The translations under genes were made by a program, and so were the position numbers. Under the pieces are notes generated by a model. It was not told the DNA's origin. It worked only from the letters and a program-made list of their open reading frames with translations, and searched no databases. This document shows, piece by piece, positions 1 to 24,780 of a stretch of 43,856 nt of DNA (positions are counted from its first letter, which is position 1; every line of letters starts with the position of its first letter). Origin of the DNA: an uncultured Candidatus Actinomarina sp. (GTDB taxonomy: Bacteria > Actinomycetota > Acidimicrobiia > Actinomarinales > Actinomarinaceae); the NCBI GenBank assembly GCA_902596545.1, contig CACJUH010000009.1:1-43856 (forward strand), given 5' to 3'.

Positions 1-612
1 AACACAAGTTTTTCTGAATTGGAATTTGAATATAAAACGAATGGTGCAATATTGAAACCTTGGAGTAATCAATTTTCTGATCCAATAAAATATTCCACTA
101 AAAAAGATATTTGGCTTAGAGGTCATCAATATGAATTTAAATTGTTCGATGGAAAAGTTATTGTTTCAAACAGCCCAACTAGAGGTTCTTGGGATATCTA
201 TTATGCATATCACAATTTAGAAACTGAAAGAAATATGAAAAATCTTTCTTTTAATGTTCCAAAAAATATGAAAGGGTATTTAAACAGTATCGATTTTGAC
301 ATAACAACAGGTCTTCAATTTCCAGATGAATCAGGCTACAGATCCAGATGTGGTCTGAGGTTAAATTGTATTTACTTAGAATTGTCACATGAATCATGGC
401 TATACATCAGAAAAGACCACCCTGTAATAACACAAGAGATTGATATGAGCAAAACAAGAAGCTTAGGCTGTGAAATTTACTACATGTGTAATCAGCCTTT
501 TAATTGGTTCAAAATTAATTCCGAAGAGTTTCCAATTACATTAGATCGGTGGGCCAATTTTTGGGGTGGACGAGACTTTAGAAAATCAATCAGACAAAAG
601 GAGGAATCATGA
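1..612 (+). CDS. Hypothetical protein, 5' end cut by window edge
   Basis: The reading frame is open from base 1 with no start codon required, so the gene very likely begins left of the window; a TTG at 19 is only a formal start. About 203 visible residues, rich in aromatic and charged residues (for example the stretch around DRWANFWGGRDF near the end), no membrane segment and no motif I recognise. The TGA stop overlaps the ATG of the next gene (ATGA), so the two are translationally coupled. It is the first of three coupled genes ending directly at a tRNA-derived attachment-site scar, so it may be cargo of an integrated element. Function unknown. Confidence 0.7.
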   Translation, partial: NTSFSELEFEYKTNGAILKPWSNQFSDPIKYSTKKDIWLRGHQYEFKLFDGKVIVSNSPTRGSWDIYYAYHNLETERNMKNLSFNVPKNMKGYLNSIDFDITTGLQFPDESGYRSRCGLRLNCIYLELSHESWLYIRKDHPVITQEIDMSKTRSLGCEIYYMCNQPFNWFKINSEEFPITLDRWANFWGGRDFRKSIRQKEES

Positions 613-1010
613 AGAATGATTTATATTCACGATTATATATAGATGCACATTTGTGCAGACCTAAATGTGGAGATTTAGGAGAAATAAACTTCGAAACAGG
701 AAAAGGAATAGTTTATTTAGCTGCTTTTAGGGGCCCTTGGATAGCAGCAATATTTCTCCAATCAAAAGGTTATGAAATAATTACTGATGAAACATGTAAT
801 CAATGCGGAGATAAAGTACAGATAATTAGAAATCTCTCTGAATTTGAGCGAAGGAGATGCAGAGATTGTAATGATTATTTTCATATTGAAACTGTTGATT
901 GGTCTACCCACTCATTCACAATCGTAGATGGTGAGCTTGTAAGAGATAGATACTATTATCAATGCCCTACACATTATGGACCTCAAGACAAGGGTATGAT
1001 GTTTGTATGA
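609..1010 (+). CDS. Hypothetical zinc-ribbon-like protein
   Basis: 133 residues. Two CxxC pairs (C63/C66 in CNQCG and C84/C87 in CRDC) spaced as in a four-cysteine zinc ribbon, plus C16/C20 near the N terminus. Such ribbons usually bind one zinc ion and act in nucleic-acid or protein contacts, but the family is not recognisable here. The start overlaps the previous stop as ATGA, preceded by an AGGAG-like ribosome binding site at about 600-605 (AGGAGG-type, rare in this window), and the end overlaps the next start the same way. Soluble, no signal peptide. Context is an unknown three-gene unit beside an attachment-site scar. Confidence 0.72.
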   Translation: MKNDLYSRLYIDAHLCRPKCGDLGEINFETGKGIVYLAAFRGPWIAAIFLQSKGYEIITDETCNQCGDKVQIIRNLSEFERRRCRDCNDYFHIETVDWSTHSFTIVDGELVRDRYYYQCPTHYGPQDKGMMFV

Positions 1011-1594
1011 AAAGAAAAAATAAAATTCTTCTAACTTCATTAGTTTCACTTGTAGTTGGTGCTGTTGCATTCTATGCGTTCTCCCTTTATGAATCGTTTT
1101 CAGAGTACGATGATGCTTTCTTATATATTGAAGGGGAAGAAGATATTGTATTGACTCAAAACGAATTTGAAAAAACCTCAAGAGTTTTAGAAAAATGGCA
1201 GTGGGGTGATAAACAAACCCCAGAGGATGAGAATTTCAGGATTATATCAATTGATGGATACGAGTGCGTAAAAGTATGGACTTCTCAACCACGAGCTCTT
1301 TTAAACAGTACTCATCCACTTGAACAATTTATTGATAATAGTTTTATATATGATTCACAAAATTTTTCTACTTACAACTGTATGAAAAATCTTGATTTAG
1401 ACAACTTTGATGGTGAATTCTATTTATATGGACAGCCATTTTTCTATGATGAACAATGGTGGCTATATAAGTCTTTTGAGCCCAAAAGAAACCTAATAGC
1501 TTTTGTTTGTTCAGACTCCTGCTTTACTTCTTGGCAAGATTTTGCAAAACCTGAACCGATTCTTAAAAGTGATCAAATTTATTTAGAAAAATAA
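1007..1594 (+). CDS. Hypothetical membrane-anchored protein
   Basis: 195 residues from the ATG at 1007, which overlaps the previous stop (ATGA); an in-frame start at 962 would lie deep inside the upstream gene and is less likely. Residues about 5-27 form one hydrophobic segment after a KRKNK basic cluster, giving an N-in anchor with an outside domain of about 165 residues. The outside domain contains several cysteines (ECVKVW, NCMK, CSDSC) that could form disulfides, and many aromatic residues. No family recognised. The stop at 1592-1594 is directly followed by the scar region that holds the tRNA-Val fragment. Confidence 0.7.
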   Translation: MKRKNKILLTSLVSLVVGAVAFYAFSLYESFSEYDDAFLYIEGEEDIVLTQNEFEKTSRVLEKWQWGDKQTPEDENFRIISIDGYECVKVWTSQPRALLNSTHPLEQFIDNSFIYDSQNFSTYNCMKNLDLDNFDGEFYLYGQPFFYDEQWWLYKSFEPKRNLIAFVCSDSCFTSWQDFAKPEPILKSDQIYLEK

Positions 1595-1724
1595 GCCCAC
1601 ACCAAGCCCACAAATTATTCAAAAACATATGATAATGTCTGATACTTTCCAGTACATTCTGATACAAGCCTTATGCTTGTTGATGTTGTAATTTGAGAAC
1701 CTCTAATACTCTCTAGTATTTAAT
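1595..1724 (+). repeat. 10-bp-phased GATAC-like repeat array beside tRNA fragment
   Basis: Non-coding stretch with several phased repeats. GCCCAC occurs at 1595 and 1606 and matches the acceptor end of the tRNA fragment downstream. GATAA/GATAC/AGTAC/GATAC start at 1631, 1641, 1651 and 1661, exactly 10 bp apart. CTCTAATACT and CTCTAGTATT follow at 1701 and 1711, also 10 bp apart. Spacing of one helical turn places all copies on the same DNA face, as expected for arm-type recombinase sites or a cooperative regulator. A related array lies at 3192-3282. Inference: part of an attachment site. Confidence 0.6.
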
Positions 1725-1775
1725 CGTTCTTCCCTTACAAGGAAGAAGTCACAGGTTCAAATCCTGTAGCGCCCA
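1725..1775 (+). other. 3' part of tRNA-Val(TAC): attachment-site scar
   Basis: Reads as the 3' two thirds of a tRNA: anticodon stem CTTCC/GGAAG (1729-1733/1741-1745) closing the loop CTTACAA (anticodon TAC), variable AAGTC, T-stem ACAGG/CCTGT with loop TTCAAAT (1751-1767), acceptor strand AGCGCCC (1768-1774) and discriminator A. The 5' acceptor strand (GGGCGCT would pair) and D-arm are absent upstream, so it cannot be a working tRNA. CCA is not encoded, as in the intact tRNAs here. A T-run follows at 1781-1786. Such 3' fragments are classic products of tyrosine-recombinase integration at a tRNA gene; the intact tRNA-Val should lie at the other end of the element. Confidence 0.85.
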
Positions 1776-1804
1776 CAAGGGTTTTTTAGCAAAAGTATTA
1801 AGAG

Positions 1805-1924
1805 CTACGAAAGCAGTGATAAAAATACTATAAAAGGCAGCGATATCAATGCGAAAGATATATAAATTAAAAAACCAATTATTAAGAGAATAATTGCACC
1901 TATAAATATTTTATTCGCATTCAT
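1805..1924 (-). CDS. Possible 39-residue hydrophobic peptide
   Basis: An ATG at 1924 opens a 39-residue frame ending in TAG at 1805-1807. It is almost entirely one long hydrophobic segment (starting MNANKIFIGA, ending FLSLLS). It occupies the otherwise empty stretch between the tRNA-Val scar and the serine hydrolase gene. No clear ribosome binding site is seen. AT-rich DNA yields such frames by chance, so this is a weak call; it could also be a decayed end of a longer membrane protein gene. Confidence 0.25.
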   Translation of the reverse strand: MNANKIFIGAIILLIIGFLIYISFALISLPFIVFLSLLS

Positions 1925-2019
1925 AAAAATTAATGTTACAACTTCTCTATTTTTTTCATAAATTGTGCAATTCAAAGAAAAAATAAAAATATTAATATAA
2001 AGAAAAAGACAGGTGATTA

Positions 2020-3180
2020 ATGTTGAGCTATTGCCATGAAGATTTCTCAGAAGTAAAAAGAATATTTAATCATAACTTTGATAAGTATAAAGAGATAGGG
2101 TCTTCTTTGTGTGTCATTGTAGATGGTGAAATAGTAGTAGATATTTGGGCAGGACACAAAAACAAAGATAGGACTAAAGATTGGAGCAAGGATACTCTTT
2201 CAGTTGCTTTTTCTAGTACCAAAGCTGCACTTGCTTTATGTGCACATATGTTAATTGAAAGAGGCGAACTAAATCTAAAAGAAAGAGTTACAAAGTATTG
2301 GCCTGAATATGGAAAGAATGGAAAAGAAGAAACAACAATTGAAATGATTTTAAATCACTCAGCTGGATTGCCTGCGTTAAGAACAAGAGTCAAAAAAGAT
2401 GGATTTTTAGATTGGGATTATATGGTGAAACTAATCGAAAATGAAAAGCCTTTCTGGAAACCTGGAAAAGAAACTGGATACCATATGATGACTACAGGGT
2501 GGTTAATTGGTGAAGTTATAAGAAGAGTTACCGGAAAATCTCTTGGTGAGTTTTTTAATAATGAGCTAAGAGAACCCTATGGTTTAAATTATTGGATTGG
2601 TTTACCTGAAGCCGAAAATGAAAGAGTAGCTGAGATTGTTCCCTTTGTTCCAAGTTCTAATGATAAACCAAGTGATTTTGCAACGGCTTTTAGAAACAAC
2701 AGTAATTCAATGCAAAGACTTTCCTTAACAAATACGGGTTATTACGATTACAATGCAAAAGAAACTTACAGAGCTGAATTAGGAGCTATTGGAGGAATAG
2801 CCGATGCGCGCTCTTTAGCAAAATTGCTTACTCCTTTAGCTCAAAACAATGGAAAGCTTCTTTCAAGAAATACTATTAAAAAATTAAGTAAATCAAATAT
2901 AAAAACACCTGTTGATAACATGCTTCTTTTTCCAACTAATTTTTCAAATGGATTTATGTTAAATATGGATAACAGAGCTAATTTTAAAGGTGAGGGTGGA
3001 TCATTTATTATTGGTCCTAATGCTTTCGGACATGTTGGGTACGGAGGAAGTAGTGCAACATTTGTTGATCCAGATTCTAAAATTTCTTTTGGGTATCTCA
3101 CAAATAAACTAGGTGGCGAATATCTCATTAACAACAGAGCTCAAAGCTTAATTAACTCAACCTACAAGTGCTTAAAATAA
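2020..3180 (+). CDS. Serine hydrolase, beta-lactamase / EstB-like family
   Basis: 386 residues of the class C beta-lactamase fold (PF00144). The nucleophile motif SxxK is S65-S-T-K68; a YHxxTxGWL stretch (about 160-168) supplies the conserved tyrosine; the C-terminal GHVGYGGS followed by FGYLTN matches the third conserved element of EstB-type esterases. Family members hydrolyse ester or amide substrates; beta-lactam activity is not implied. No signal peptide, so probably cytoplasmic. The start is an ATG preceded by AGGTGAT. The gene stands alone between two tRNA-Val-derived scars, which suggests it arrived as cargo. Confidence 0.9.
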   Translation: MLSYCHEDFSEVKRIFNHNFDKYKEIGSSLCVIVDGEIVVDIWAGHKNKDRTKDWSKDTLSVAFSSTKAALALCAHMLIERGELNLKERVTKYWPEYGKNGKEETTIEMILNHSAGLPALRTRVKKDGFLDWDYMVKLIENEKPFWKPGKETGYHMMTTGWLIGEVIRRVTGKSLGEFFNNELREPYGLNYWIGLPEAENERVAEIVPFVPSSNDKPSDFATAFRNNSNSMQRLSLTNTGYYDYNAKETYRAELGAIGGIADARSLAKLLTPLAQNNGKLLSRNTIKKLSKSNIKTPVDNMLLFPTNFSNGFMLNMDNRANFKGEGGSFIIGPNAFGHVGYGGSSATFVDPDSKISFGYLTNKLGGEYLINNRAQSLINSTYKCLK

Positions 3181-3191
3181 TTTAAACGAGA

Positions 3192-3282
3192 GATACCCTG
3201 TGATACTTTCTGATACGATTTAAAGATAAGAAAGAAAGGATACAGTAGGATTTAAAATCTTTAATATTCTGTAATATTTAAT
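3192..3282 (+). repeat. Second phased GATAC array, related to 1631-1724
   Basis: GATAC starts at 3192, 3202 and 3212, exactly 10 bp apart, within 12 bp of the serine hydrolase stop. TAATAT follows at 3262 and 3272, again one turn apart. The 24 bases at 3259-3282 match 1701-1724 at 20 positions by my count. Order and spacing therefore repeat the arrangement upstream of the tRNA-Val fragment, which makes common origin more likely than chance. Confidence 0.6.
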
Positions 3283-3332
3283 GAGTTTTTCTACAATGAA
3301 GAAATTAAAGTTTTCGATCCTGTTATAACCAC
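3283..3332 (+). other. Decayed copy of the tRNA-Val 3' attachment scar
   Basis: Aligned to 1725-1776 with one 2-base gap it agrees at about 32 of 50 positions by hand count, including TACAA of the anticodon loop, the GAAGAA that follows it, ATCCTGT of the T-arm and a terminal CCAC, then ACAAG and a T-run. The T-stem and acceptor pairings are lost, so it is not a tRNA. Together with the matching upstream array it looks like an older, eroded attachment site. The next gene starts 10 bases downstream. Confidence 0.55.
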
Positions 3333-3342
3333 AAGACTTTTT

Positions 3343-20877: not shown

Positions 20878-22037
20878 TAAAAAGAGATAGTATTGCCATG
20901 GTTTTGTATGCAAGGTTTCCATCAGAAATGGCATATAGTCACCATATAATACAAGTTGCTAAGGGTTTTGTGGAAAATAATTGCGATGTAAATATTTATT
21001 ACCCAAAAACCTACAACAAAAAGACTTTAAAAGAAACTCCTGAAGAATATTATGGCAACTTAACAAATATTAGATTTATCCAAATTAATAATGTTGACAT
21101 AACTAGCTTCAAGATTTATGAAATTTCACCAAATTTTGTAAAAAAATTCCTTTTCAGCTTAAATACATTTATTTGGGCAAAAAAACTCAAGCAAAATAGA
21201 AATGAAAATTTTATTTGGTCAACAAATCCTAACATTTTGGTTATTGCAAAAAAATATTTTAAACATGTCATTTATGAAAAACACGGTCAGGCAAAATATA
21301 TTCAAAAACTTTCTATTTCGATTCTTAAAAAATCTAAAAATACTTTGATGATTGGTGTTACAGAATTTGCTTTTAATGAACTCTCAAAAGATTTCAATAA
21401 TGCTCTATATCTTACAAATGGAGTAGACAAAAACTTTATTTCTCAAAAGGAAAAAGTTTTATCATCAAACCATGTAACTATTGGATATATTGGAATGTTA
21501 GAAACATATGGTGTTGATAAAGGAGTTTTAAATTCAATTAAAGAAATAGATAAACTTTCAATAACAACAAAGTTGAACATAGAAGTTATTGGTGGGCCAG
21601 AAAATAAGTTAAATGAATTAAGAGATTTTATTAAGACAGGCAGTCAAGATAAAAACTATTTAGTAAAATCAAGTATTCCTCATAGTGAAGTATCCGAAGT
21701 GTTGAGAAGTTTTGATATAGGAATTGTCCCCTATCCCAACGATAGTCATATGAACAAGTATGCTTCGCCGATGAAGATTTTCGAAATGGCAGCTTGTGGT
21801 GTTCCAATTCTTGCTTCAGATATAAAATCTCATAAAGAGTTAGAAAAATTTAACTTGGGAATCGTTTATTTTAAAAATGGTAATTTTTCTGACTTTTCCT
21901 TAAAGCTTCAGGAGCTTATCTTAGATGCAGATTTACGAAAAAAACTAACTGAGTTGTCAAAAAAGAATATAGTTAATTTATCCTGGGATAAAAGGATGGA
22001 AACAGTTCTAACTAGCGCTCGTAGCTCAACTGGATAG
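20853..22037 (+). CDS. Glycosyltransferase family 4, 3' end inside tRNA-Arg
   Basis: 394 residues (ATG 20853; an ATG at 20898 giving MVLYARFP is nearer the usual GT4 start and is a good alternative). The C-terminal half has GYIGMLETYG, VIGGPENKL, and YASPMKIFEMAACGVPILASD with the conserved Glu, typical of GT-B retaining enzymes. The family normally ends soon after the YSWDK-like element (LSWDKRME here); the last seven codons (SARSSTG) are read from the acceptor and D-arm bases of tRNA-Arg, which also supplies the TAG stop. This suggests an end formed by recombination or drift into the tRNA. Confidence 0.88.
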   Translation: MEERLSKLIKRDSIAMVLYARFPSEMAYSHHIIQVAKGFVENNCDVNIYYPKTYNKKTLKETPEEYYGNLTNIRFIQINNVDITSFKIYEISPNFVKKFLFSLNTFIWAKKLKQNRNENFIWSTNPNILVIAKKYFKHVIYEKHGQAKYIQKLSISILKKSKNTLMIGVTEFAFNELSKDFNNALYLTNGVDKNFISQKEKVLSSNHVTIGYIGMLETYGVDKGVLNSIKEIDKLSITTKLNIEVIGGPENKLNELRDFIKTGSQDKNYLVKSSIPHSEVSEVLRSFDIGIVPYPNDSHMNKYASPMKIFEMAACGVPILASDIKSHKELEKFNLGIVYFKNGNFSDFSLKLQELILDADLRKKLTELSKKNIVNLSWDKRMETVLTSARSSTG

Positions 22038-24471: not shown

Positions 24472-24544
24472 GGGTCGGTAGCTCAATCGGCAGAGCAGGA
24501 GCCTTTTAAGCTCAAGGTCGTGGGTTCGATTCCCACCCGACCCA
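24472..24544 (+). tRNA. tRNA-Lys(TTT)
   Basis: Acceptor GGGTCGG pairs with CCGACCC; anticodon loop CTTTTAA gives TTT; T-loop TTCGATT. The anticodon stem has one terminal G-A mismatch. CCA not encoded. A run of T follows at 24546-24551. A possible -10 (TATTAT) lies at 24453-24458. Confidence 0.97.
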
Positions 24545-24593
24545 CTTTTTTATCTCTTTTAAAATAAACTTATAGTATTCTTATTAAATAGTT

Positions 24594-24668
24594 GGGGGCG
24601 TGGTGAAGTCTGGAGTTCACGCCTGCCTGTCACGCAGGAGGTCGCGGGTTCGAATCCCGTCGTCCCCG
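24594..24668 (+). tRNA. tRNA-Asp(GTC)
   Basis: Acceptor GGGGGCG with CGTCCCC (one G-T pair); anticodon stem CCTGC/GCAGG, loop CTGTCAC, anticodon GTC; T-arm CGGG/CCCG with TTCGAAT. CCA not encoded. TATAGT at 24571-24576 is a possible -10 box. Confidence 0.97.
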
Positions 24669-24674
24669 CAATTA

Positions 24675-24747
24675 GGCCAGATAGCTCAGTCGGTAGAGCA
24701 CTTGTCTGAAAAACAAGGGGTCGGCAGTTCGATTCTGCCTCTGGCCA
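24675..24747 (+). tRNA. tRNA-Phe(GAA)
   Basis: Acceptor GGCCAGA/TCTGGCC; anticodon stem CTTGT/ACAAG, loop CTGAAAA, anticodon GAA; T-loop TTCGATT. CCA not encoded. Only 6 bases follow tRNA-Asp, so the two are co-transcribed. Confidence 0.97.
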
Positions 24748-24780
24748 CTGGGGTTTTCTATTTTTTAGTCGGAAATTTAC

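Follow-up and report, generated by a model that had tools for sequence, protein, structure and literature searches.

A truncated tRNA-Val gene and its surroundings

The window analysed here is the entire contig C9 (43,856 nucleotides) of a Candidatus Actinomarina assembly of 1.10 Mb in 17 contigs, and its feature of interest is a 3' fragment of tRNA-Val(TAC) on the plus strand (1729-1776), together with the gene cassette that ends in it. The fragment comprises the anticodon arm CTTCC-CTTACAA-GGAAG (stem-loop 1729-1745, anticodon TAC), the variable loop AAGTC, the T arm ACAGG-TTCAAAT-CCTGT and a terminal AGCGCCCA, which represents the acceptor strand and discriminator. The 5' half is absent. 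An earlier note on this DNA had described the same fold and missing half, which are confirmed here, and had placed them at 1725-1775. Compared with dinucleotide shuffles, nearly all of which it surpasses, the RNA fold of 1725-1776 (-14.6 kcal/mol) has z = -3.1. Four tRNAs elsewhere in the window are predicted by ARAGORN and Rfam, which report none at the fragment, as expected of a truncated gene; no fragments of those four (Arg, Lys, Asp and Phe) were found within the window. When the fragment is aligned with 21 intact tRNA-Val genes, its boundary falls exactly on the 5' strand of the anticodon stem.

The fragment is followed by a terminator-like GCCC-ACAA-GGGTTTTTT, with which it forms the core (1729-1789, plus strand). 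Upstream lies the P arm (1615-1728, plus strand), with GATAC-like motifs at 1631, 1641, 1651 and 1661, spaced exactly 10 bp. It is preceded by an 11-bp tandem, AAGCCCACACC/AAGCCCACAAA (1593-1614, plus strand), the right-end arm-type pair of what is here called cassette A. Two GCCCAC copies in this pair had been read as repeats of the acceptor end, a reading that was dropped because other cassettes carry other pairs at this place, matched at their opposite end. The P arm and core share 86% identity across 184 nt with a copy in a relative (G023, L080).

Cassette A occupies 1-1776, and its cargo (1-1594, plus strand), the left end of which lies beyond the contig, consists of open reading frames (ORFs) at 19-612, 609-1010 and 962-1594. 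None of the three has a Pfam match or a close relative within the fetched tRNA-Val loci of relatives, and ORF3 has no orthologue or close relative in 41 genomes of the genus (best 35% identity). Conservation of 1-1594 as core genes, which would have spoken against an insertion, is thus not seen where these comparisons were made.

The assembled genome yields 37 tRNA matches, 36 of them full-length. No intact tRNA-Val(TAC) was found in it: among the anticodons read Val(GAC) is present and Val(TAC) is not, and a pattern for the 5' half of tRNA-Val(TAC), which has one exact copy in most relatives, has no match. The tRNA gene of relatives is preceded by a core ribonucleotide reductase of the B12 type, and several relatives have an FAD oxidoreductase gene ending 44-53 nt (about 49 nt) upstream of the tRNA. 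Both genes are on contig C11 of the present assembly, which stops 33 nt past the oxidoreductase, and therefore the C11-C9 gap, left of the window, is the most likely place of the missing tRNA, as the earlier note had expected.

Anatomy of the cassettes and probable position of the crossover

The stretches examined contain 23 intact tRNA-Val genes and 53 fragments. The tRNA-Val core is also present in named single-cell genomes of Candidatus Actinomarina, the genus of these relatives. Two contigs labelled Flammeovirgaceae and Bacteroidia (L125 and L156) bear the Actinomarina core as well and are probably misbinned.

The aligned copies resolve into three parts. Every young fragment has upstream of it a P arm, roughly 110 nt long and containing GATAC-like motifs, an 11-bp tandem pair precedes the P arm, and a second pair stands right after the preceding core, at the opposite end of the cassette. 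The pair type varies from cassette to cassette (CCCCAC, CACCCAC, GACACAC, GACACC, CCGAAC, CCGCAC, GACCCAC, CCCCTAC, CACGCAC, CACACAC, CAGAAC and GACGCCC). Within a cassette the end pairs agree in 14 of the 15 cargo-distinct cassettes that have both; their matches sum to 258, whereas 100,000 permutations averaged 183.5 and reached 232 at most, none of them being as good. Putative arm-type sites, recognized by sequence, thus flank the core on both sides as matched pairs, and the layout is that of an attP site, with arm sites on either side of a presumed crossover in the anticodon loop. The arm pairs would be read by the N-terminal domain of an integrase. Cargo is missing at two places, L078 (minus strand, 11073) and L205:10467, where the left-end arm pair runs directly into a P arm; these intervals look like deletions between matched pairs.

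The side of the crossover can be read from a single base. At the anticodon stem, CTTCCC is present in each of the 21 intact tRNAs and CTTTCC in each of the 11 fragments with a type-1 P arm. The element-derived base remains in the fragment and never appears in the tRNA; therefore the strands exchanged to its right. The most likely place of the exchange is the anticodon loop of 7 nt, which CTTCC and GGAAG enclose as inverted sequences. Both the arm pairs and the boundary at the anticodon stem support the original interpretation of the fragment as an attachment-site scar of the tyrosine-recombinase type, with the element to its left. That the scar is fresh, as had also been stated, is not supported.

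Tandem arrays at tRNA-Val

In relatives, 16 of the 23 intact tRNA-Val genes have one to three downstream fragments in the same orientation, so that a direct repeat of the 3' part of the tRNA has the intact gene at one end. The cassettes between the tRNA and the fragments measure 0.4-5.3 kb. An element has been inserted in the window, as the earlier note held, in the form of a tandem series of cassettes rather than a single one: cassette A is followed by the older cassette B (1793-3182, plus strand) and by a decayed second P arm and tRNA-Val core (3183-3342, plus strand), a unit that had escaped notice and that is recognized by local alignment (score 45, against 28.5 for the best of 2000 shuffles). 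Cassette B encodes a hydrolase of the beta-lactamase family (PF00144; ORF 2020-3180), homologues of which adjoin tRNA-Val or its fragments in two relatives (G020 and G021).

To the right of the scar, from 1815 on, the window matches contig C26 of the relative G015 at 88%, and in G015 this shared flank is abutted by another cassette, with a CCGCAC-type pair. Filled and unfilled sites can also be compared away from the tRNA. The genome to which the window belongs (G000) has, at C1:151098-154157 (L041:13098-16157), a 3,005-bp cassette that holds two lipoprotein-like genes, is bordered on each side by a tRNA-Val fragment and lies far from every tRNA-Val gene, and G001 has a single tRNA-Val fragment at the matching intergenic place. 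Cassettes can thus occur at a tRNA tail without the tRNA.

The cargo of the tRNA-Val cassettes includes restriction-modification systems, HNH and T5orf172 nucleases, NucS-like and Hsp70-like proteins, proteases and lipoproteins. The PHROG families matched (25 of 47 listed) comprise methyltransferases, helicases, proteases, an HNH endonuclease and unnamed families, with no structural genes among those 25. Many cassettes (L083, L084, L089, L204 and L205) have a companion gene in common, which encodes a small membrane protein (55-57 aa; TPTQxIL...RLTYFVYFKN). Beyond the decayed unit, the window continues into an envelope-sugar (glycotype) island (3343-24748), which has a tRNA-Arg at 22015 and ends with tRNA-Lys, -Asp and -Phe (24472-24748); the island holding this region has been described (PMC7771536).

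Recombinases and autonomous relatives

None of the cassettes examined encodes an integrase, and there is no PF00589 match within the tRNA-Val arrays; the integrase gene predicted between tRNA and scar was not found in relatives. In 42 genomes of the genus (51-95% complete), PF00589 matches are XerC/D-like proteins, one 336-aa integrase, one truncated integrase of 145 aa and one remnant. Five XerC/D-like proteins that were sampled fit XerC/D models best, yet fall below the curated cut-offs; for the recombinases checked, the integron model is a far poorer fit than those of XerC/D. XerC/D was considered as the inserting agent, being present in nearly all genomes, but fits the arm-type pairs poorly. 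Such pairs are unlike the known dif-type sites of XerC/D. A serine recombinase was rejected in this role, since the 42 genomes contain no resolvases or serine recombinases.

The 336-aa enzyme belongs to an element in G034 (C1; L158:4842-9882) at tRNA-Ile(GAT), which lies between two identical 78-bp copies of tRNA-Ile and carries, besides the tyrosine integrase, a restriction-modification system of the MvaI/BcnI type and a tRNA-Leu. Its ends bear matched 11-bp pairs, GGTGACTTTTT and GGTGACT/AGTGACT, and it shows the form of an autonomous relative of the cassettes. Its integrase has no relative in viral contigs by the method used, and among the best phage records it matches only phage integrases, with identities of no more than about 30%. 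A similar system is seen at a second island tRNA, tRNA-Phe in G002 (C1; L159:6208-11208), where two 3' fragments lie downstream with a truncated integrase between. Inside a duplicated tRNA-Ile in G015 (C1; L201:4790-9423), an integrase is left as a C-terminal remnant alongside a fragment of tRNA-Val.

Viral contigs were searched with the core (exact and degenerate), the P arm and the P' arm, and nothing relevant was found; the two contigs recovered carry intact tRNA-Val genes. In phage records searched with the whole unit, the tRNA part alone matched, mostly in tRNA-Val genes of phages.

Proposed mechanism and alternatives

The fragment is probably the attR-type junction of a non-autonomous cassette, inserted at tRNA-Val(TAC) by tyrosine-recombinase recombination with the integrase supplied in trans. 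In its circular form such a cassette would have, in order, an arm-site pair, the P arm of about 110 nt, a core that reproduces the tRNA sequence, anticodon stem through terminator, then about 25 nt of P' arm and, once more, the same arm-site pair. An exchange within the anticodon loop would rebuild the tRNA on the left and leave a tRNA tail on the right, so that new cassettes would enter between the tRNA and the older ones and the tandem series would grow. Since the DNA sites are present and the recombinase is absent from the cassettes, the integrase would act in trans, brought by a transient helper element or by a phage. That each cassette has arm pairs of its own suggests that there are several helpers, which differ in arm specificity. 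A wider reading is offered more tentatively, namely that cassettes are exchanged without integrases across the genus: one tRNA would be the landing site for many cassettes, the arm pairs would be address labels for changing helper integrases of phages or transient elements, and the arrays would be integron-like without a resident integrase.

Several observations weigh against this account. Neither a helper integrase nor a phage nor a circular form came to light, the search for a helper having covered phage and viral collections, and the genomes surveyed are 51-95% complete. The P arm or the pairs are absent in 16 of 36 intervals, and one cassette, L204:8679-10957, has unmatched end pairs; it may be two fused cassettes. 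The arrays might also be fossils of decayed cis-mobilizable elements (CIMEs), in which each cassette lost its own integrase after insertion. Such loss agrees with the definition of CIMEs (PMC5704250), and integrase remnants are known at tRNA-Ile (G001 and G015) and tRNA-Phe (G002). This course is nevertheless unlikely, as no examined tRNA-Val cassette holds an integrase remnant, the arm pairs and cores are well preserved, and repeated loss of the integrase that spared both arms every time is the less simple history.

Shuffling of cassettes by homologous recombination between repeated tRNA-Val cores or arms, without any integrase, is considerably less probable again. The cores are near-identical repeats and the cargo-less intervals resemble deletions between matched pairs, but such exchange leaves unexplained both the first arrival of diverse cassettes and the element-specific anticodon-stem base that never appears in the tRNA, and a core of 64 bp is short for homologous exchange. 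Decay of autonomous elements and homologous exchange may both contribute to the arrays. That the fragment is a product of chance, or a functional RNA with no link to integration, deserves hardly any credence. It does fold well, but near-identical copies occur at defined places across the genus in conserved att-like surroundings, and a 32-base piece of it, which occurs once in the window, has 0 occurrences expected by chance, which refutes a chance origin.

Insertion in trans, the reading preferred here, offers a readable mechanism for one gene-swap hot spot, in which small cassettes have complete attachment sites and no recombinase. Streamlined ocean bacteria are thought to be poor in mobile elements, yet they exchange genes, and several of these cassettes bear restriction systems and surface lipoproteins. 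The matched arm pairs also make the missing helper searchable: an integrase with equal arm sites should mobilise the cassettes that share them.

Comparison with known systems

Cassettes of the same kind have been reported from the flexible genomic island fGI1 of Candidatus Actinomarinales, bounded by direct repeats of partial tRNAs at five tRNA targets (Lopez-Perez et al., 2020; PMC7771536). The organisms and island type are the same as here, and so are the small cassettes ending in tRNA repeats. Arm pairs, a P arm, the position of the crossover and a survey of recombinases are all absent from that text, as is the word integrase, and no publication was found that describes the arm pairs or the lack of an integrase. 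The tRNA-fragment repeats are therefore already known, as are CIMEs and tandem islands without integrase at ssrA; the present work adds arm pairs that are matched and specific to each cassette, a P arm, evidence on the crossover and the observation that, across the genus, an integrase for these cassettes is lacking.

The ssrA islands of Dehalococcoides likewise lie in tandem downstream of one RNA gene and are bounded by repeats of its 3' end (PMC3146451). They depend on a serine recombinase system, and 16 of them have integration genes while 15 lack an integration module; at tRNA-Val there are none with such genes. CIMEs resemble the tRNA-Val cassettes in keeping attL and attR without integration genes, but are tied by accretion to an integrase-bearing neighbour (PMC5704250), which was not found in the arrays examined. 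Tycheposons of Prochlorococcus and Methylophilaceae are also tRNA-anchored cargo islands of streamlined aquatic bacteria; they measure 4-200 kb and contain a tyrosine recombinase gene (PMC10872708), whereas the tRNA-Val cassettes are mostly below 4 kb and have no recombinase. Integron arrays are defined by folded attC sites and IntI, in contrast to the core described here, which is a tRNA tail with arm pairs. The closest anatomy is that of the lambda-type attP of actinobacteriophages, where the core is also a tRNA 3' half, the crossover falls in the anticodon loop and pairs of arm sites surround the core; these phages carry their own integrase (PMC10865867), while the tRNA-Val cassettes have the site alone.
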